Shown one piece after another: positions 13,466 to 56,540 of a stretch of 64,000 bases of DNA (position 1 is its first letter; every line of letters starts with the position of its first letter). Source of the DNA: Opitutus sp. GAS368 (GTDB taxonomy: Bacteria; Verrucomicrobiota; Verrucomicrobiia; Opitutales; Opitutaceae); contig NZ_LT629735.1 of the NCBI RefSeq assembly GCF_900104925.1, positions 248,001 through 312,000 on the forward strand, written 5' to 3'. The notes below the pieces were generated by a model that saw only the letters and a list, made by a program, of their open reading frames with translations, was not told the origin of the DNA and ran no database searches. The position numbers were made by a program, and so were the translations under genes.

Positions 13466-14831
13466 GGCGGAGTGACAGACATCGAGGACAGTTGAGGTGA
13501 CAGACATCGGAGACAGTTAGATCGGATCAGATCTTGATCGATCGGGGTGGGCGCGGGAGGGGCTGCGCCCCTCCCGCTTTGGATTGCAGGGGTTGACGCC
13601 AACGGGCGTGCCGGAGTCCGGCCGGATCGTGGGCGTGGAGGTGGCCGAGCAGATGGGGTCCGAAATAGACGGCGAGGACATCAGGGCGGACCAGGCGGGC
13701 GCCGAGTTCCTCCGCGATGAAGGCCTTGCCGATGAGCCGCTGGCGTTTGCGCCAGCGGTAGCGCCCCTTGGCGTCGAGGCGCACGCGCAGCCAGGTTTTC
13801 GGATAGGTCCAGCGAGGGACAGTGGCCGGCAGAACGCGCCGGCTGGCGCGGTAGAGTTCCGCCGGCGTGCGCAGTCCGCGTGCCTCATGGGGGCGGAGCT
13901 GGTTGTAATGGTGGCGCCAGCGCCCGAAGCGGCGCTGCTGGGCCGGCGGGTGGGCTGAAACCGGGGTGGCGGCGAACCGCTTCAGCACGCCATGCATCTG
14001 CTCGTGCGCCGCGTTATCCTGCGGGCAGCGGGGACGGCCATACTCCATCCGGATGCCCAGTTTGACCCAACCCGCGCTCAGGCGGGTCCAGCCGCGCGGG
14101 CCCCCGGCGCCAAACGGGGCCCCATTGTCCGTGCGGAGGGCCTTGGGCAGGCCGTAACGGCGGAACAACCTGCGCATCACCCGAGCGACCTCCGCTTCGC
14201 CGGGCTTGGACACATGCTGCACACACAGCACATAGCGACTCGCCACATCGCGCACGGTGAGGGCATGAACCTTCCGGCCGTCGGCGGTGCGGAACTGGCC
14301 CTTGAAGTCGAGCGACCAGACATCGTTCGCACAACGCCCCGCCAGGCGTCCGCGCAGGCGCAGGATCGGTCCCGGTCTGGCGCGCCGGGTTTGCCGGCGC
14401 ACCAGGCCGTGCGTCTGCAGCCAACGCGACAGCGTGCGCACGCACGGCAACTGCGAGCGGGGATACTCGCGGTGCAGCTTCCACCACAGCTTCTTCGGCC
14501 CGAAGCTCCGCTCCTGCAGGCGGGCCACGCGCAAACGTGCCTCCCAGCGCTCGCGCAGCCGGACGGCCGCCTGGGGCGTCCGGGCGCGCTCGGTGAGCGC
14601 CCGGCCTCCCCCGGCCCGAAACCGTTCCCACCAACGGTATCCGCAACTCCGGCTGATACCATGCAACCGACACAATGATGTGATACTGCGGCCGGAACCC
14701 GGCCGCTTGATCCACTCATCGATAAACCGACGCCGTGCTTGTTCCGTGACCGATGTCTTCCAGGGCATAGTGCCCCGAGAGTGTCACCGATGTCTGTCCT
14801 TCAAAGTGTCCTCGATGTCTGTCACCGAGCC
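13466..14831. mobile_element. IS481-family insertion sequence, 1366 bp
   Basis: The ends carry perfect inverted copies of GTGACAGACATCGAGGACA, each preceded by GGC-NNN; related subterminal copies of GTGACAGACATCG lie just inside both ends. One DDE transposase fills the element. Comparison with the intact host repeat (21035-21109) puts the insertion after ...CGCAGGGA and gives a 3-bp target duplication GGA at 13463-13465 and 14832-14834. The element looks intact and probably recent. Confidence 0.88.
13527..14768 (-). CDS. IS481-family DDE transposase
   Basis: 413 aa. The N-terminal helix-turn-helix (ARRRFIDEWIKRPGSGRSIT, SLCRLHGISRSCGYRWWERF) is followed by the rve integrase core with catalytic residues in the contexts SLDFKG, RTDNGAPF and AAHEQMH, and a C-terminal QLRPHEARGLRTPAELY motif typical of IS481 elements. 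The frame is uninterrupted, so the enzyme may be active. It lies inside the terminal inverted repeats at 13466-14831. Confidence 0.92.
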   Translation of the reverse strand: MPWKTSVTEQARRRFIDEWIKRPGSGRSITSLCRLHGISRSCGYRWWERFRAGGGRALTERARTPQAAVRLRERWEARLRVARLQERSFGPKKLWWKLHREYPRSQLPCVRTLSRWLQTHGLVRRQTRRARPGPILRLRGRLAGRCANDVWSLDFKGQFRTADGRKVHALTVRDVASRYVLCVQHVSKPGEAEVARVMRRLFRRYGLPKALRTDNGAPFGAGGPRGWTRLSAGWVKLGIRMEYGRPRCPQDNAAHEQMHGVLKRFAATPVSAHPPAQQRRFGRWRHHYNQLRPHEARGLRTPAELYRASRRVLPATVPRWTYPKTWLRVRLDAKGRYRWRKRQRLIGKAFIAEELGARLVRPDVLAVYFGPHLLGHLHAHDPAGLRHARWRQPLQSKAGGAQPLPRPPRSIKI

Positions 14832-14850
14832 GGACGCGGGCCCTCCAACT
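14832..14850. repeat. Right part of the split GGAGGGCCCG element
   Basis: GGA target duplication followed by CGCGGGCCCTCC, the missing end of the repeat whose left part is at 13404-13465. Confidence 0.85.
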
Positions 14851-14935
14851 TTACCCCTCCTGACAGCATTATGTCAGCAGGCTTGATCCGGGGCGCGTGC
14901 CGGTTTGCATTCCGCCCATTCGTCACCATTCAGTG

Positions 14936-17900
14936 ATGCCTCCCGTGCCGACCACCTCCGCCCCCGAGTCCATTCGCCTGCGCGGCGTCCGCCAGAACAA
15001 TCTCAAGGGCTTCGACCTCGACCTGCCGCTGGGCAAATTTGTTGTCGTCACCGGCCTGAGCGGCGCGGGCAAGTCCTCGCTGGTGTTCGACACGCTCCAC
15101 GCCGAGGGCCAGCGGCGCTACGTCGAGACCTTCAGCGCCTATACCCGGCAGTTCCTCGACCTGCTCGACAAGCCCAAGGTCGACTCGATCGAGAACATCC
15201 GGCCGTCCATCGCCATCGAGCAGTCCAACACGGTCAAGACCTCGCGCTCCACCGTCGGCACCATGACCGAGCTGACCGATTTCGCGAAGGTCTGGTTCAG
15301 CCACGTCGCCGACTGCTACGATCCCGCCACCGGCGAGAAGGTCGAGGACGACAACCCGCAGACGATCTGGGCGAAGACCCACGCCGCATTCCCGAGCGAA
15401 AGCTCGGGACATCCTTTGCCGGGCGACGGCCCGGACAAATCCCGGGCTGGCAGCAGCCAGCAACGGGGAGCCGCAACTCTCCTGCTCTGTTTCCGCATCG
15501 CCAAGCCCGACAACCTGAAGTGGACGGAAGTGCTCACCAGCATCAAGGGCCAGGGCTACACGCGCGTGCTCACGCCGGCGGCGCAACGCCGAACATCCAG
15601 GCTCCAACCTCCAACCTCCAGTGAAGAAACGGTGCTGCACAAGCTCGACGACTTGTTGGCCGCAAAGCCCGACTCCGCGCTCAAGAACGTCTCGCACCTG
15701 TTCGTCATTCAGGACCGTCTGCTGATCTCCGCTGAAAACAAATCCCGTTTTCTGGAAGCCTGCGAATCCGCCCTTCATTTCGGCAAGGGCGAGGTGTTCC
15801 TGTTCGCCAATCATAAATCTGAAATCGTAAATCATAAGTTTCTCGAAGCCGGCCACTACTCTCGCGGCCTGCACTCGCCGAAGACCGGCCGCACCTTCCG
15901 CGCCGCGTCGCCGGGACTGTTCTCCTTCAACTCCCCGCTCGGCGCCTGTCCGAAATGCCGGGGCTTCGGCCGCGTCATCGACATCGACTACCGCCTCGCC
16001 ATCCCCGACCACTCGCTGTCCATCGCCGAGGGCGCCATCCGGCCGTGGGAGGGCGAGATCTACGGTGAGTCCAAGAAGGACCTGATGCAGTTCGCCAAGA
16101 AGGTGGGCCTGCCGGTCAATGTCCCCTTCGCCGCGCTCACGCCGGCCCAGAAGACCTTCGTGCTCGACGGCTCGCCGGGTTACGACGGCGAGACCAACCA
16201 CTGGCCGAAATACTGGTATGGGCTCAAGGGCTTCTTCCGCTACCTGGAGAAGACGACCTACAAGATGCACGTGCGGGTCTTCCTCTCGCGTTACCGGGCC
16301 TACAATCCCTGTCCCGACTGCCACGGCGCCCGCCTCCAGCCCGACGCGCTCTGCTGGAAATGGCGCGGCCGCACGCTCCCCGAACTCTATCAACTGCCCA
16401 TCAGCGAACTGCTGGCCGCGGTCTCGAGCGACACCACGCTCGCCAGCCGCGCCTCCGGCCACGAGGCACACAGTGCCTCGATTGCCCACGACTCCATCGT
16501 CACCCGCCTGCGCTACCTCGCCCAGGTCGGCCTCGGTTACCTGACGCTCGACCGCACTTCGCGCACGCTTTCCGGCGGCGAGGTCCAGCGCGTCAACCTC
16601 ACCTCCTGCCTTGGCACCTCGCTCGTCGACACGCTCTTCGTCCTCGACGAGCCGTCCGTCGGCCTGCACCCGCGCGACATCGACCGGCTGCTCGGCATCA
16701 TCCGCACGCTCACTGACACCGGCAACACGGTCGTCGTCGTCGAGCACGACGAGGCGATGATCCGCGCCGCCGACCATGTGATCGAGGTCGGCCCCGAGCC
16801 CGGCGCCCGCGGCGGCCACATCGTGTTCCAAGGCACGGTCGGCGGCATGCTGGCCTCGCCCACGAGCATCACCGGCGCCTACTTTTCGGGCCGCCAGCGG
16901 ATCGACGCCCCGGCGCAACGCCGCCCGGTCGACTGGAGGCGGGACTACCAGTCCCGCGGGTTGCCAACAGCGGACCCCATGCCTCGCGGGACTGATAGTC
17001 CCGCCTCCATAAAACCAGTCGCCAAGTGGCTTTCGTTTAAGAACGCTTCCAAGCACAACGTCCGCAATCTTTCCTTCCGCCTGCCACTGCAGCGCCTGGT
17101 CTGCCTCTCCGGCGTGTCTGGCTCGGGCAAGTCCACGCTCCTCGACAATGTCATCTGCCAGGGCTTGCTCACGCAGCGCAGTCTGATGACCGAGGATCCG
17201 GCCGAGATCGAGGCGGTGAAGTCCGACCTGACCTTCTCCGAGGTCGTGCTGGTCGACCAGTCGCCGCTCAGCCGCACGCCGCGCTCCAACCCTGCACTCT
17301 ACTGCGAGGCTTGGGAACTCATCCGCGAGCTCTACGCGACCGTGCCCGCCGCGCAGGAGGCCGGCTTCAACGCCTCCAGCTTCTCCTTCAACAGCGGCGA
17401 CGGCCGCTGCGACAACTGCCAGGGCCTTGGCAGCGAGCGCGTGGAGATGCAGTTCCTCTCCGACGTCTTCGTCCCCTGCCCCATCTGCGAGGGCAAGCGC
17501 TTCAAACCCGAGGTGCGCGCCATCACCTGGAACGGCCACTCCGTCGCCGACCTCCTCGCCACAACCGTCGGCGATTCGCTCGCCATCTTTGCCGATCATC
17601 CCGAGATCCACCGCCGGCTCGCCGCGCTCGACGAGGTCGGCCTCGGTTACCTGCCGCTCGGCCAGCCGCTCAACACCCTTTCCGGTGGCGAGTCCCAGCG
17701 CCTGAAGCTGGTCCGCTATCTCAGTGACTTCACCGACGAAGCAACGACCATCGCGCAAGGCGCCCTGCTCTTGCTCGACGAGCCCACCACCGGTCTGCAT
17801 CGCCACGACGTGAAGCGCCTGCTGGCCGTGCTGCAGCGCATCGTGGACCGCGGCCACAGCATTGTCCTCATCGAGCACAACCTCGACGTCCTCAAGTCCG

Positions 17901-20900
17901 CCGACTGGATCCTCGAGGTCGGCCCCGACGCCGGCGCGCAGGGCGGCCGCATCATCGCCGAGGGCCCGCCGGAGGAAATCGTCCGCACCGACACCGCCAC
18001 GTCGCCTTTCCTTCGTCACGCGCTGGCTGCGACCGAGCCGATGCTCGCCGCCGCCGAGGATGCCGCGCCCTATCAGGCAGCCATCGCGATGAACCCCGGC
18101 GAGCTGACCGTGCTCGGCGCCCGCGAGAACAACCTCAAGAACATCTCCGTCTCCATCCCGCACCGGCAGCTCTCGGTTGTCACCGGCGTGTCGGGCTCGG
18201 GCAAGTCCACCCTCGCCTTCGACATCATCTTTGCCGAGGGCCAGCGCCGCTTCATGGAGTCCATGTCGCCTTACGCCCGGCAGTTTGTCGAACAGCTGCC
18301 GCGCCCCGACATCGACCGGCTCAGCGGCATTCCGCCGACCGTCGCCATCGAGCAGCGCGTCACCCGTGGCTCGCGCAAGTCCACCGTCGCGACCATCACC
18401 GAGGTCGCCCAATACCTCCGCCTGCTCTACGCCCGCCTCGGCATCCAGCACCATCCCGAGACCGGCCGGGCCGTCACGCCCCTCTCGCCCGGCCAGCTGC
18501 GCCTGCTGCTCGACAAGATCCTCGCCACGCCCAAGGCGAAAAAGGCCAGGCACCTCTACCTCTGCGCCCCGCTGATCCGCGGCCGCAAGGGCCACCACGA
18601 GCCCATCGCCAAGTGGATCGGGAAACAGGGCTACGAGCTCATGCGCGCTGACGGCCGGCTGCTCCGCGTCGATACCTTCCAGAAACTCGACCGCTACAAG
18701 GAACACGATGTCGAGGTCGTGGTTGCCGACCTGAAGCGCGGCAAAGCCGCACAGCTTACAGCAAAAAGCTTAAAGCTTAAAGCCGACGAAGCGCTGAAAA
18801 CAGCGCTTCGTCTCGGCAAGGGCTCCTGCTTTCTTTTAACTCCGGCCGGAGAAATCCTGTCCTGGTTCTCGTCGACCCGCACCGACATCCTCAGCGGCGA
18901 GTCCTTCCCCGAGCTCGACCCGAAGCATTTCTCCTTCAATTCGCCGAAGGGTTGGTGCCCGACCTGCCGCGGCCACGGCCGCATCTACGACTGGATGCTG
19001 ACGCCCGACGAGGATGATGAGCGCTCCGACGAGGTCGCCGACGCCCTGCGCACGTTTGATCCCGACGACGTCTCCTCGCACGGCAAAGCCTGCCCCACCT
19101 GCCACGGCGAACGCCTCAACCGCATCGCCCGCGCCGTGCGGTTGCCCCTAAAAGGTAGGGCGAGTCGTCCCCGACGAGCTGCGGCTCATCCGGAGGATTC
19201 GCCCTACCGTGCAACCTCCATCTCCCTGCCCGAGCTGACCAAGCTCACGCCCGACGACCTGCTCGCGACTCTCCGCAACCTCCAGCTCGAGGCGCGCGGC
19301 AAGCTCATCACCCAGGACATCGTCCCACAGATCGAGGAACGCCTGCGCTTCCTCGGCCAGGTTGGCCTCGACTACCTGCAACTCGACCGCTCCACCGAAA
19401 CCCTGTCCGGTGGCGAGGCCCAGCGCATCCGGCTCGCCGCCCAGCTCGGCTCCAATCTTTCCGGCGTCCTCTATGTCCTCGACGAGCCGTCCATCGGCCT
19501 GCACGCCCGCGACAACGACCGGTTGATCGATACGCTCCTCTCGCTCCGCGACAAGGGCAACACGGTGCTCGTCGTCGAGCACGACGACGTCGTCATGGAA
19601 CGCGCCGATCGCATCATCGATCTCGGTCCCGGCGCCGGCATCCACGGCGGCACGGTGCTCGCCAACGAAAGCCCCGCCGGCATCAAGCAGAACGCCGCCT
19701 CGTTGACCGGTCTCTTCCTGGCCAGGGGCATTCCGCATCCGCTGCGCGGCGAATACCGCGATGTAGGGGCGCCGCTTGACGGCGCCCGCGGGCGTCCACA
19801 AGGGACGCCCCTACAAAAAACCGACTGGCTCGAACTGAGCGGCGCCCGTTACCGCAACCTGCAGGACCTCACCCTGCGCCTGCCCCTCGGCCGGCTGACG
19901 CTGGTTTGCGGCCCGAGCGGCGCCGGCAAGTCCACCCTTTTCCGCGACCTGCTGCACCCGGCCGTCTCGTGCGCCATCAAAAAGAAAAAAACCAGGCTCA
20001 CCGGCCGGGATTTCGTGCGCTTGGCCGGATTTGAATCTGATGGAGACGCGGCGACCCCGCCGCGAGCGGACGTTCGCGGGCGGGGTCGCCCGCGCTCCAG
20101 TGCAGAGCCTTTCCTCACCCTCACCGGCGCGAACCACTTCCGCACCGTCGTCGAGGTGGACCAGTCGCCCATTGGCAAGACGCCGCGCTCCACGCCGGCC
20201 ACCTACCTCGGCATCTTCGACCTCATCCGGCAGTTCTTCGCCTCGCTGCCCGAGGCCAAGATGCGCGGCTACAGCGCCAGCCGGTTCTCGTTCAATGTCG
20301 CCGGCGGCCGCTGCGAGACCTGCTCCGGGGCCGGCCGCATCAAGCTCGAGATGGCATTCATGCCCGACTCCTACCTGCCCTGCGACGCCTGCGGCGGCTC
20401 GCGCTTCGGCCCGGAACTCGCCGACATCGCGTGGAAGGGCAAGACCATCGGGGAGGTGTTGAAGCTCTCCTTCGACGAGGCCGCGGTGTTTTTCGACTTC
20501 CACTCGCAGCTCTCGCAGGTCTGCAAACTGATGGTCGATTGCGGCCTCGGTTACCTGACGCTCGGCCAGAGCAGCCCGTCGCTCTCCGGCGGCGAGGCCC
20601 AGCGCCTCAAGCTTGTCACGGAACTCACCAAGGGCCTGGCCACCTACAAGGAGCGCTCGCACAACATCGCCGTCCGGAACCTCTACCTGCTCGAGGAGCC
20701 GACGATCGGTCTGCACCTGAGCGACTGCGAGAAACTCATCCGGGTGCTGCACAGTCTCGTGGACCAGGGCCACACCGTGGTCGTCATCGAACACCACCTC
20801 GACCTGCTCGCGGAGGCCGATTATATCGTCGAACTCGGGCCCAACGGCGGCCCTACCGGCGGCGAAATCATGTATCAGGGTCCGCTGGCCGGCCTGCTCA

Positions 20901-20953
20901 GGGTGCGGAAAAGCCCAACGGCTCCGTATCTGCGCGCCAAACTGAAAACGTAG
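14936..20953 (+). CDS. uvrA: Double-length UvrA (four ABC modules), excinuclease ABC subunit A
   Basis: 2005 aa, about twice a usual UvrA (~940). Four Walker A loops are seen: GLSGAGKSS (40), GVSGSGKST (~726 and ~1083), GPSGAGKST (~1658). There are four LSGGE signatures (~544, 914, 1489, 1882), and four zinc-module regions with CxxCxG pairs such as [27 protein letters not shown] and CETCSGAGR. So two complete UvrA units are fused head-to-tail, as in Chlamydia. It detects DNA lesions and loads UvrB. About seven stretches are palindromic or AT-rich insertions translated in frame (listed separately). The frame opens at 14897, but the ATG at 14936 fits. The IS lies 105 bp upstream and may affect expression. 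Confidence 0.93.
15391..15408. repeat. Hairpin insertion inside uvrA (CCCGAGC/GCTCGGG)
   Basis: CCCGAGC-GAAA-GCTCGGG, a perfect 7-bp stem, opens a low-similarity loop encoded by about 15390-15472 ([15 protein letters not shown]...) between two conserved UvrA segments (DNPQTIW and LCFRIAKP). Further short hairpins follow in the same stretch. Confidence 0.6.
15809..15841. repeat. AT-rich word inserted in uvrA
   Basis: A GC-poor stretch encoding [11 protein letters not shown] within GC-rich uvrA. It contains AATCGTAAATCATAA (15823-15837), which occurs exactly again in the intergenic gap at 55476-55490. Confidence 0.65.
16934..17009. repeat. 76-bp palindromic element inside uvrA
   Basis: TGGAGGCGGGACTA (16934-16947) pairs perfectly with TAGTCCCGCCTCCA (16996-17009), and an inner stem CAGTCCCGCG/CGCGGGACTG lies within. 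It is translated in frame between the two halves of the first UvrA unit. No second copy is in the window. Confidence 0.85.
18752..18811. repeat. AAGCTTAAAGC words plus hairpin inside uvrA
   Basis: Repeated AAGCTTAAAGCTTAAAGC is followed by a perfect 11-bp hairpin ACGAAGCGCTG-AAAA-CAGCGCTTCGT (18786-18811). Encodes [18 protein letters not shown], which is low-complexity beside conserved UvrA sequence. Confidence 0.6.
19154..19208. repeat. GGTAGGGCGA element inside uvrA (orientation 1)
   Basis: Outer stem GGTAGGGCGAGTC / GATTCGCCCTACC with inner hairpins (TCGTC/GACGA, ATCC/GGAT). Its reverse complement is nearly identical to the element inside mnmA at 38662-38726. Translated in frame as [19 protein letters not shown]. 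Confidence 0.88.
19762..19815. repeat. TGTAGGGGCG element inside uvrA, 54 bp
   Basis: Ends TGTAGGGG...CCCCTACA enclose hairpins GGCGCCG/CGGCGCC and GGGCGTCC/GGGACGCCC. The length is exactly 18 codons. Related to the intergenic copy at 37522-37572. Confidence 0.9.
20041..20099. repeat. TGGAGACGCG palindromic element inside uvrA
   Basis: TGGAG...CTCCA ends, then GGCGACCCCGCC / GGCGGGGTCGCC (12-bp perfect) and an inner CGCGA/TCGCG. Encodes [20 protein letters not shown] in the fourth ABC module. Confidence 0.85.
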
Positions 20954-20998
20954 CGCAACGCGCTTGCCGCGCCATAGCTCCGCTGGAGCGACGGCGGG

Positions 20999-21034
20999 AC
21001 CGCGCCCTATCTGCGGGAGAAGCTGAAACGGTAA
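20999..21034 (+). other. Vestigial copy of the uvrA C-terminal end
   Basis: In the same frame as uvrA, 45 bp after its stop, stands a second tail encoding TAPYLREKLKR-stop, parallel to the real end [11 protein letters not shown]-stop. The spacer contains AGCTCCGCTGGAGCGACGGC, related to the intergenic element behind the tRNA. It suggests that a repeat insertion displaced the original end of the gene. Confidence 0.7.
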
Positions 21035-21109
21035 TTGGAGGGCCCGTGTCCCTGCGGGCCGTTCGGACGGCATAACCAATTCCCGGCCCGCAGGGACGCG
21101 GGCCCTTCA
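21035..21109. repeat. Intact GGAGGGCCCG palindromic element
   Basis: GGAGGGCCCGTGTCCCTGCG faces CGCAGGGACGCGGGCCC across a short centre containing CATAACCAAT. It is the reference for the IS-interrupted copy (13404/14835) and for a half copy at 55426-55454. Confidence 0.85.
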
Positions 21110-22080: not shown

Positions 22081-23217
22081 CTACCCCGCCGCCAACGGCA
22101 GGCTCGGGGCGATCCCGAGGCTGAGGCCCGCCTCGCTAACGCCGCCCGTCTCGCGCTCCATCCACGCGGCAAAGGCGATCATGCCGGCATTGTCGCCGGT
22201 GTGCTGTGGCAGCGCGCGGAAGAAGGGTAGATTCTGCGCCTGCGCGACCTTCGCCAGCTCGGCTTGCAGGGTCTGGTTGTTCGCGACGCCACCCGACAAG
22301 CCGAAGCTGCGGTAGGCATTGGATGCCTCACTGTAGGGCGGGGTCTCCGCACCCCGCCTTGCCGCCGCCGCCACGTCCGACTTAGGCGGGATACGGTGGT
22401 CCCGCCCTACAAAATTCCGCTCCAGCGCCAGGCCGGACTTGCGCACGAGCGCATTGAATACCGCCGCCTGGTAGCTGGCGCAGAGGTCGGCCTTGCGTCG
22501 CTCGATGTCAGCCGGCGCCATTTTTTGCAACTGGTAGCGCAGGCTGGTTTTCAATCCCGAGAAACTGAACTCCAGCGACGACCGCTGGGCGACAGCCTTG
22601 GGAAACTCGAACGCCGCCGCATTGCCCGTCGCCGCCAGCTTCTCGACCTGCGGCCCGCCGGGATAACCCAGCCCGAGCAGCTTGGCACCCTTGTCGAGCG
22701 CCTCGCCGGCGGCGTCGTCCATGGTCGAGGCCAGCAGTGTGATGCACCGCAACTCGTCGATGCTGAAAAGCGCCGTGTTGCCGCCGGACACGAGGAGTCC
22801 GAGGTGCGGCAAAAGTTTTTCGAATCCCTCCGCGAAGTCCGCCGGCCCCGCCGCCTGCAGGGCGATGAACGGCGAGAAGGCGTGCGCCCGGAGATGATTC
22901 ACCCCGACAACCGGCACGCCCCACGCCAGGCCGAGGCTCTTCGCCGCGGCCAGGCCCATCGCGAGGCACGCGGCCAGGCCCGGGCCGTTGGTGACAGCGA
23001 TCTGCGTGATCCTTTCCGCCGGCACGGCGGCCAGCGCCCGGGCCAGCAGCGGACCGAAGTGCGACAGGTGCTCCCGGCTGGCCAGGTCGGGCACGACGCC
23101 GCCATAGGCCTCGTGCAGGGTGATCTGGCTGTGCACCCACTCGCCCACGAGACCACGCGCCGGATCGAAGACGGCCACCGCCGTCTCGTCGCAGGAACTT
23201 TCGAGGGCGAGGATCAT
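22081..23217 (-). CDS. tsaD: tRNA N6-threonylcarbamoyladenosine transferase TsaD
   Basis: 378 aa, longer than the usual ~340. Starts ILALESSCDETAVAV, with NGPGLAACLAMGL, metal-binding HLRAH (about 106-110), VSGGNTAL, and GLSGGVANNQTL/DNAGMIAFAAW at the C-terminus. It transfers the threonylcarbamoyl group to A37 of ANN-decoding tRNAs. The extra length comes from residues about 269-295 (FVGRDHRIPPKS...RRGAETPPYS), encoded by a palindromic element at 22332-22411 inserted in a loop before the conserved GLSGGV strand. Confidence 0.95.
   Translation of the reverse strand: MILALESSCDETAVAVFDPARGLVGEWVHSQITLHEAYGGVVPDLASREHLSHFGPLLARALAAVPAERITQIAVTNGPGLAACLAMGLAAAKSLGLAWGVPVVGVNHLRAHAFSPFIALQAAGPADFAEGFEKLLPHLGLLVSGGNTALFSIDELRCITLLASTMDDAAGEALDKGAKLLGLGYPGGPQVEKLAATGNAAAFEFPKAVAQRSSLEFSFSGLKTSLRYQLQKMAPADIERRKADLCASYQAAVFNALVRKSGLALERNFVGRDHRIPPKSDVAAAARRGAETPPYSEASNAYRSFGLSGGVANNQTLQAELAKVAQAQNLPFFRALPQHTGDNAGMIAFAAWMERETGGVSEAGLSLGIAPSLPLAAG
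22332..22411. repeat. TGTAGGGCGGG element inside tsaD
   Basis: Ends TGTAGGGCGGG...CCCGCCCTACA with an inner GCGGGGTCTCCGCACCCCGC hairpin. Same family as 26421-26500 at the murJ 3' end. It stays open in the tsaD frame. Confidence 0.9.
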
Positions 23218-37521: not shown

Positions 37522-37572
37522 ATAGGGGCGTCGCTTGACGACGCCCGGGCGCGGTCAAGCCACGCCCCTACA
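37522..37572. repeat. ATAGGGGCGTCGC element (intergenic)
   Basis: ATAGGGGCGTCGCTTGACG faces TCAAGCCACGCCCCTACA. Same family as the element inside uvrA at 19762-19815. Confidence 0.8.
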
Positions 37573-37647: not shown

Positions 37648-38835
37648 ATGTCCAAGGAACGCATCCTCGTCGCCATGTCCGGCGGCGTCGACAGCAGTGT
37701 CGCCGCCCTCCTGCTCAAGCAGCAGGGGCACGACATTGTCGGCGCCTACATGAAGAACTGGATCAACGAGGACAACGTCATCGGCCACTGCCCGTGGATG
37801 CAGGACATCGACGACGCCCGCGCCGTGACCGACCGGATCGGCATCGAGTTCCGCGTCGTCAATCTGATGGCGGACTACCGCCGCCTCGTCGTGGACTACC
37901 TGCTCGACGGCTACCAGCGCGGCCTCACGCCCAATCCGGACGTGATGTGCAACCGCGAGATGAAGTTCGGCGTGTTCGCCAAATACGCCCAAGCCGAGGG
38001 CTTCGCCGCCGTCGCCACCGGGCACTATGCGCGGCGGGTGGAGGCCTCCACTGTAGGGTCGGCGCTTGCGCCGACCTTGGCGGCCGCAAGCAGCCGCCCT
38101 ACAACCTTCGCCCTGTTGGAAGGCCTGGACAAGAACAAGGACCAGTCCTACTTCCTCGCCCTGCTCTCGCAGGCACAACTCGCCGCAGCGCGTTTTCCCA
38201 TTGGCCACCTCACCAAGCCCGAGCTCCGCGCGCTCGCCGCCGACGCCAAGCTGCCCACCGCCGGGAAGAAGGACAGCCAGGGCATCTGCTTCATCGGCGA
38301 GGTGAAGATGGCGGACTTCCTTAAAACTTACGTGCCGGACCACCCGGGCCCGATCGTCCGCGCCACCGACGGCAAGGTCATCGGCGAGCACCGCGGTCTG
38401 CACTATTACACCATCGGTCAGCGCCGTGGCATCCGCATCCCGTCCAACACCGACGACAAGGCCTATGTCGTCACTGGCAAGCGTCCGGACGACCACGCGT
38501 TGCTCGTCGCGTTCGACGGCCCCGATGCCCCCGGCCTGTGGGCGAACGAGTGCCGCGTGCACGGCGTCAGCTTCATCGGTGAGCCGGTCAGGGAAACACG
38601 ACGGATCGAGTGCAAGGTCCGCTACCGCGACCCGCGGGTCTTTATCGAGTTCACGCCTGCTGGTAGGGCGAATCCTCCGGATGAGCCGTCGACCGACCGC
38701 GGCTCGTCGGGACGACTCGCCCTACCTCAAACGGCCTCGGTCAAGTTCGAGCAACCCCAGCGCGCCCTCGCCCCCGGCCAGATCATGGCGCTCTACGACG
38801 GAGAAAAACTCCTCGGCGGTGGGGTGTTCGCCTGA
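37648..38835 (+). CDS. mnmA: tRNA-specific 2-thiouridylase MnmA
   Basis: 395 aa, longer than E. coli MnmA (368). PP-loop SGGVDSS (11-17), catalytic cysteine in MCNRE (about 100), second active cysteine in GICFIG (about 214), [14 protein letters not shown]. It activates U34 with ATP and inserts sulfur. Two insertions are translated in frame: residues about 135-152 ([18 protein letters not shown], from the element at 38052-38103) and about 339-360 ([20 protein letters not shown], from 38662-38726). The frame extends far upstream, but the ATG at 37648 gives the family start. Confidence 0.95.
38052..38103. repeat. TGTAGGGTCGG element inside mnmA
   Basis: TGTAGGGTCGGCGCTTGCGCCGACC hairpin opens the element and CCGCCCTACA closes it. 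Same family as the intergenic copy at 56487-56540. Read in the mnmA frame. Confidence 0.9.
38662..38726. repeat. GGTAGGGCGA element inside mnmA (orientation 2)
   Basis: GGTAGGGCGAATCCTCCGGA to TCGTCGGGACGACTCGCCC. Its ends match the reverse complement of the uvrA element (19154-19208), with ~10 extra bases in the centre. Confidence 0.92.
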
Positions 38836-56486: not shown

Positions 56487-56540
56487 TGTAGGGTCGGCGC
56501 TAGTCGCCGGACCGGTCCGCCGGCAAGCGGCGACCCTACA
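56487..56540. repeat. TGTAGGGTCGG element in the dcw cluster
   Basis: TGTAGGGTCGGCGCTAGTCG faces CAAGCGGCGACCCTACA, matching the element inside mnmA (38052-38103). Sits between murG and murB. Confidence 0.9.

Follow-up and report, generated by a model that had tools for sequence, protein, structure and literature searches.

A double-length uvrA gene of Opitutus sp. GAS368 as a probable sink for mobile repeats translated in frame

The double-length uvrA gene of Opitutus sp. GAS368 carries eight in-frame inserts of three classes and is probably a sink for mobile repeats, which would be inserted by transposases associated with repetitive extragenic palindromes (REPs), that is, by REP-associated tyrosine transposases (RAYTs), and filtered by the tolerance of the loops in which they land. 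The gene (14936-20953, plus strand) lies in a stretch of 64,000 nucleotides, here called the window and numbered from its first base, which corresponds to G000:C1:248001-312000 of a single-contig genome of 4.15 Mb and 66% GC. It is a non-canonical paralogue: whereas canonical, single-length UvrA has about 950 aa, its open frame encodes 2005 aa comprising two UvrA halves. A whole-genome search found a second, canonical UvrA frame of 997 aa (3794668-3797496, 1115 bits), and because of this frame the description of the double-length gene as an essential repair gene, made in an earlier sequence-only reading of the window, is unproven.

The inserts were delimited by comparison with 80 uvrA loci from relatives, the nearest of which are records named Opitutus and Lacunisphaera. 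Of these, 68 had a single uninterrupted frame of 1750 aa or more and entered an alignment with the window protein; the other 12, whose frames were broken or short, were excluded. More than half of the 68 have gaps (mean gap 0.59 to 0.99) opposite aa 154-178, 216-227, 295-298, 670-697, 1274-1279, 1408-1424, 1614-1623 and 1706-1720; two tiny runs, at aa 244-245 and 1363, also pass the filter. DNA alignments with nine close relatives agree with these protein-based calls. Insertions in frame had been proposed at seven places, and all seven were borne out, together with an eighth at 15584-15628; the stretches are confirmed as genuine in-frame insertions. Most of the 68 relatives lack exactly these stretches and so do not show the outcome that the earlier reading had named as refuting it, shared stretches that are normal UvrA loops; the exceptions are L001, which carries the element at 15412 at the same place, and L032 and L066, which carry the family of the insert at 19154; L005 has what looks like a remnant of the 15412 element at its site. 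At the place formerly given as 18752, the AT-rich word at about 18748-18787 proved to be extra, but the perfect hairpin at 18785-18812 (plus strand) is native UvrA sequence, encoding a 12-residue segment also found in relatives, and is no insertion.

Half of the inserts are inverted repeats, at 16934-17009, 19154-19208, 19762-19815 and 20041-20099 (all plus strand), in which a pair of inverted REPs forms one hairpin or a clover. Their single-strand folds have z-scores of -7.7, -4.5, -5.1 and -5.5, respectively, with 0 of 200 shuffles as good in each case. The inserts at 16934 (TGGAGGCGGGACT...AGTCCCGCCTCCA) and 20041 (TGGAGACGCGG...CGCGCTCCA) carry the terminal tag GGAG, and those at 19154 (GGTAGGGCGAGTCGTCC...CGCCCTACC) and 19762 (TGTAGGGGCG...CGCCCCTACA, clover fold) carry GTAG; GGAG is absent from the GTAG degeneracies listed in section 5 of PMC3733652. 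All four families are dispersed, with 70 match rows and about 23 full-length places for the 16934 family, 46 rows and about 40 distinct places for the 19154 family, 58 rows and about 34 distinct places for the 19762 family, and 43 rows and about 38 distinct places, including half copies, for the 20041 family; in many cases two rows represent opposite strands of a single place, the distinct places were obtained by merging both-strand rows manually, and the searches scored a limited number of candidates. These tens of places per family are below the more than 100 quoted for REPs (PMC2817692). In a systematic sample of 1.264 Mb the families are mainly extragenic, with intergenic places making up 6 of 8 (16934), 10 of 19 (19154), 12 of 17 (19762) and 7 of 11 (20041), where intergenic and intragenic calls are approximate because genes were called with a simple script based on codon usage. 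Among 21 copies of the 16934 family taken with 1.5 kb of flanking sequence, only the uvrA copy lies fully within a called gene; the 1.264-Mb sample holds one further copy of this kind. The window itself contains an intergenic copy of the 19762 family (37523-37572, minus strand), a further copy of that family (56487-56540) and a 19154-family copy that lies within a frame of 869 aa without a Pfam match (38662-38726, minus strand), in keeping with the earlier observation that two of the elements have relatives there.

The genome yielded nine Y1-transposase matches, seven of which were scanned. NF047646, the NCBIfam family of REP-associated tyrosine transposases, is the sole match in five of the seven; at its cut-off of 80, L110, L112 and L113 pass and L108, L111 and L114 fall below, while L106 is an IS200 insertion sequence (IS) transposase. 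Three of the repeat families stand beside such genes: the 16934 repeats flank L112 (88.3 bits), the 19154 repeats flank L113 (90.4 bits) and the 19762 repeats flank the RAYT-like L111 (69.4 bits, below the cut-off). On their repeat architecture, the four inserts are REPINs, hairpin-forming REP doublets, in the sense of PMC3116915.

The distribution of one REPIN fits gain better than inheritance. In L032 the 19154 element sits at exactly the nucleotide that it occupies in the window, and 54 of its 55 bases agree (98%), as against about 83% in the 300-base flanks; its family is also found at this site in L066. Eight tips nearer to the window on the core tree lack the element there, L055 and L072 holding other inserts. 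The contrast in identity and the absence from nearer tips fit separate insertions, or a transfer, better than descent.

The fifth dispersed element, at 15412-15470 (plus strand), forms part of the insert at about aa 154-178 and is translated into a 17-residue peptide; it folds as two hairpins (z -5.2, 0 of 200 shuffles as good). The 5' part of the same insert, a GAGCGAAAGCTCGGGA mini-hairpin at 15388-15411 (plus strand), has one weak genome match (E 0.027) and no second copy in a 29% sample of the genome. Sixteen genome copies of the 15412 element align as two hairpins, with two-sided compensatory changes in 12 of 19 pairs and a covariation score of 0.359 versus 0.115 in shuffles, 0 of 500 of which scored as high. 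A model of the element, R1, finds 42 places at E<=0.1 in its own genome and matches in 18 of 20 same-genus relatives and in 0 of 17 others; in the loci of the 80 relatives it gives eight matches in six loci, seven of them in uvrA. Rfam gave no match at E<=0.5 in ten loci bearing the element. By its covariation and distribution, this is a structured, genus-restricted dispersed element. Of the best 30 R1 places, 13 are in called genes, 12 of them in the sense direction and 1 antisense; a further 15 are intergenic and 2 lie at edges. Orientation follows the GC-skew arm at 33 of 42 places (P 3e-4), at 23 of 30 after cluster thinning (P 0.005) and at 13 of the 15 classified intergenic places, as would be expected if the element moved through single-stranded DNA at the replication fork. 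The IS200 pair L106/L107 was tested as a partner and rejected: the element is not part of the 563 bp that the two copies have in common, besides which they share a separate match of 29 bp. Five of the eight stretches are thus dispersed in the genome, with many copies intergenic, as the sequence-only reading had anticipated.

The same loops have been used repeatedly among the 69 aligned proteins. Inserts, defined as at least 8 aa above the tenth-percentile length between core columns, number 249 in 22 gaps and 62 of the 69 proteins, with 1831 core columns; their avoidance of the core is partly built in, because they were defined as lying between core columns. Fourteen of the 22 gaps are used by five or more proteins. 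Loops 762, 1406 and 1613 contain members of the 19762 family (FAM1), of which L072 has three; the 19154 family (FAM2) is found in loops 1271, 1406, 1428 and 1613, and the 15412 family (FAM6) in loops 153, 292 and 1701. Loop 1613 by itself has GTAGGGGCG, GTGGAACG and GTGGGAGCGAGC types, and different families enter one loop at different nucleotides. Matches away from their own loop were found for 105 inserts, leaving 144 without a match elsewhere, and matches outside uvrA were found for 79 inserts versus 25 of 249 control segments. An inverted-repeat score of at least 12 was reached by 18 inserts versus none of the controls, and a score of at least 9 by 31 versus 12. The insert CHSERSEES in loop 666 of the L059 uvrA is one that we take to be a peptide often derived from a repeat in other phyla.

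The remaining three inserts belong to a different class. No dispersed copies of 15584-15628 or 15806-15842 were found by blastn, and 18748-18812 gave one weak match outside uvrA (E 0.004); because blastn copies of the AT-rich words were absent, a test for periodicity was made. All three stretches (plus strand) have a 7-base period: an in-frame AACCTCC-type array at 15584-15628, which had not been listed earlier, an AATCATA-type AT-rich word at 15806-15842 and a TTAAAGC-type AT-rich word at 18748-18787, with period scores of 13, 9.5 and 13.5 and 0 of 2000 shuffles as high for each. The inserts had been described as hairpins or AT-rich words, and five of them do fold, but 15806-15842 is unfolded (z +0.6) and has period 7 instead; it is also a modest excess, of 9 residues versus the relatives' median of 5, and comparable arrays stand in its loop in L068 and L004. 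Among the 249 inserts of the 69 aligned proteins, period-7 runs scoring at least 10 occur in 63 versus 7 of 249 control segments, and other periods from 4 to 12 give 0 or 1. Period 7, with its harmonic 14, is the only one present, and the units vary by species and loop. In the loci of the 80 relatives, runs scoring at least 16 number 62 in 458,146 bases of uvrA versus 7 in 608,865 flanking bases, an 11.8-fold excess (P 4e-16), although the 62 are spread over 29 loci and some of them are not independent. The sample of the organism's own genome has 22 strong period-7 runs, 9 of them in one 20-kb stretch, with 0 to 6 for other periods; the units CAGGTTT and GAGGACG recur at many places.

A structural model of the second half of UvrA (mean predicted local distance difference test score, pLDDT, 74.8; predicted template modelling score, pTM, 0.73) has eleven segments below 50. 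The 19154, 19762 and 20041 inserts correspond to four low-pLDDT segments (residues 374-380, 386-390, 579-593 and 669-685), mostly coil, whereas the 18748 word has pLDDT block means of 62-75 and extends into a helix. Three of the four second-half inserts are therefore predicted to be disordered, and the proposal that the insertions occupy surface loops agrees with the model for these three and not for the 18748 word.

The canonical paralogue provides a control. In the same genome, the only internal trace of the tested elements in canonical UvrA is a weak 18-base match. No strong period-7 run occurs in 30 canonical UvrA loci, some of them partial, that total 85,695 bases, versus the 62 in the 458,146 bases of the relatives' uvrA. 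Inserts per 1000 core columns amount to 0.67 in 27 canonical versus 1.97 in the 69 double-length proteins, and in the nearest group to 0.90 (13 same-genus canonical proteins) versus 3.28 (14 proteins of the window's clade), the canonical and double-length sets having been drawn from different genome lists and not from exactly the same genomes.

With a repeat library made from the intergenic DNA of the genome sample, uvrA ranked at the top of 864 genes, with 5 internal blocks and 0.58 expected (P 3e-4). Filtering of blocks for a palindrome or period 7 left 32 of the 864 genes as hosts, of which 31 were kept, one having been excluded because the region around it, L162, resembled an array of tandem paralogues. 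Twelve of the 31 hosts process DNA or RNA (UvrA, an SNF2 helicase, SMC, RecD2, RlmD, PolX, TsaD, DnaE, RsmB/F, QueA, an AlkZ-like glycosylase and TcdA); among 30 block-free genes of matching length, one does (Fisher P 0.001; 0.0025 without uvrA). In this comparison classes were assigned by hand and not blind, the nucleic-acid class did not include LacI and LytTR regulators, and hosts were scanned with NCBIfam or Pfam and controls with Pfam only. A similar bias is remarked on in PMC3733652, where replication and repair genes are said to hold many of the intragenic REPs.

In the explanation that we consider probable, RAYTs would act in trans, pasting hairpin-bearing single-stranded REPIN units across the chromosome, a separate process would spread the two-hairpin element, and the period-7 arrays might arise through dispersal or slippage. 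Selection would remove most hits in genes, but the roughly fourteen linkers of the double-length UvrA would tolerate up to about 35 extra residues, so that in-frame, stop-free copies could persist and decay slowly. As an extra UvrA beside the canonical protein, it is probably under still weaker constraint. The cell need not benefit from the inserts, which may well be neutral.

Several observations weigh against this explanation. Only 105 of the 249 inserts matched anything elsewhere, and the control segments also matched outside uvrA at a lower rate. The excess of blocks in uvrA fails correction for 864 genes, and the non-random set of hosts is unexpected under simple tolerance. The 19154 family is just half intergenic in the sample, and the node of the core tree that separates the window from L032 is weakly supported (0.565). 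Among the loci examined, no RAYT locus was found with the 20041 family, and no transposase was found for the 15412 element. The period-7 arrays of the window score below the threshold of 16 used for the 62 strong runs. Finally, neither a target-site duplication nor a clean empty site was shown for any insert.

The alternatives differ in how much of the pattern they would account for. Ordinary variable UvrA linkers whose palindromic look is due to chance are very improbable overall: many relatives differ in length at these positions, most inserts have no match elsewhere and the 18785-18812 hairpin is native, but the chance reading is refuted for the five window inserts that belong to dispersed families, and the excess of high inverted-repeat scores and of period-7 runs over controls runs counter to it as well. 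It is speculated in PMC3733652 that repair and replication genes retain their insertions because altered repair produces mutators. The prominence of nucleic-acid proteins among the hosts, with UvrA, SMC, RecD2, DnaE, PolX, the AlkZ-like glycosylase and the SNF2 helicase among them, speaks for this idea. We regard it as quite unlikely here, for the canonical UvrA is free of internal copies save for the weak 18-base match, RNA-modification and metabolic enzymes are also among the hosts, and the inserts avoid core columns. A further alternative has the elements aimed at uvrA or its DNA, for example as single-stranded DNA at a fork, with site reuse reflecting target choice. In favour of such targeting, the window, L032 and L066 all carry the 19154 family at an identical nucleotide, and the 15412 element is oriented along the GC-skew arms; it is nevertheless improbable given that different families enter one loop at different nucleotides and that many REPIN copies are intergenic.

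For the AT-rich words alone, growth in place by 7-base slippage in permissive linkers, without insertion, has nearly an even chance of being correct. The restriction to period 7 and its harmonic, the differences in units between species and loops, and the idea of polymerase slippage for heptamers relayed in PMC4692102 are all consistent with it, whereas the recurring units CAGGTTT and GAGGACG at many places in the genome suggest some dispersal, though 9 of the 22 arrays lie within 20 kb. An adaptive reading, in which dispersed elements are retained preferentially in nucleic-acid proteins as useful basic, Ser/Pro/Gln-rich segments, UvrA serves as a workshop for transposon-borne and 7-base-period linkers and the two-hairpin element has become adapted to translation, is unlikely in our estimation; the basis offered for the last part is the ratio of 12 sense to 1 antisense places in called genes.

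Other features of the window and genome touch on these repeats. A GTAG-type REP pair (22332-22411, minus strand) lies in frame inside tsaD (22081-23217) and is absent from TsaD of L005, L033, L004 and L068; at the same site, L001 and L072 have related inserts and L055 and L032 other ones. An IS481-like transposase (13527-14768, minus strand; 176 bits, below the family cut-off of 224) lies upstream of uvrA. An Rfam scan of 14800-21100 gave nothing over its gathering score; a lysine riboswitch match at 18737-18838 (minus strand; 28 bits versus a gathering score of 30) and the other matches in uvrA, all below their gathering scores, were rejected as chance. Elsewhere in the genome, L190 (G000:C1:3389821-3409820) is an island rich in repeats: it holds three 16934-type REPINs, copies of the two-hairpin element, an IS200 copy and the 9 of 22 strong period-7 arrays mentioned above. 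An insert in the uvrA of a groundwater Opitutia genome (L055:9823-9844, GTGGGAGCGAGCTTGCTCGCGA) bears what we take to be a likeness to a Pseudomonas REP, and a cross-phylum REP family is possible. A 19154-type REPIN starts at the end of canonical uvrA, its GTAG contributing the stop codon (L201:4385-4439, G000:C1:3797552-3797606), a habit of GTAG REPs noted in PMC3733652.

These findings extend, rather than found, a known phenomenon. Opitutus terrae and the organism studied here presumably belong to one bacterial family. Intragenic REPs have been described in several species, with the highest GTAG number in O. terrae, both of whose uvrA genes have double REP insertions, and with REPs near the same recB site in two Xanthomonas species (PMC3733652, 2013). 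As in the genome studied here, hairpin repeats lie inside uvrA and other repair genes, and flexible or neutral linkers and mutator effects alike are discussed in that report. Publication of the O. terrae case makes the core phenomenon known and not confined to Rickettsiales, contradicting the statement in the sequence-only reading that in-gene palindromic elements are rare outside that order. The O. terrae account gives two insertions per uvrA, REPs only, as against eight inserts of three classes here; new in the present case are the number and variety of inserts, the reuse of loops, with 22 gaps over 69 proteins, the period-7 arrays, the structured, genus-restricted element and the paralogue control. 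Nothing was found in the open-licence literature on translated period-7 arrays in UvrA, cross-species reuse of UvrA loops or the two-hairpin element.

Resemblances to other systems are likewise partial. REPINs and RAYTs as described in PMC3116915 and PMC2817692 resemble those found here in that inverted REP pairs fold and REPs of matching type border a RAYT, but the elements are described there as extragenic, whereas the present ones are translated, include two GGAG-tagged families and have tens of copies rather than more than 100. The Rickettsia palindromic elements (RPEs), to which the inserts had been likened, are also palindromes translated in frame in conserved proteins, and in one assayed case the activity of the host protein was kept (PMC2229807). 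That much of the likeness holds, but RPEs measure 105-146 bp and the elements here, REPINs and other repeats, 54-76 bp, with three families linked to RAYTs; the two were compared by length and context only. Heptamer repeats of Nostoc, Xanthomonas and Beggiatoaceae (PMC4692102, PMC4679880) are similarly over-represented 7-base tandem units, described as mainly intergenic, whereas those here are denser inside one gene than in its flanks.

The frequent presence of REPs within genes in this group calls for caution. The double-length uvrA adds to the repeats found in genes a period-7 class and a structured element. Genes that contain mobile repeats usually show just a few of them. As a single gene that holds more than 200 inserts of several classes at few sites across dozens of related genomes, with an insert-poor paralogue as a control, it makes the neutral or adaptive building of protein segments by mobile repeats directly testable.

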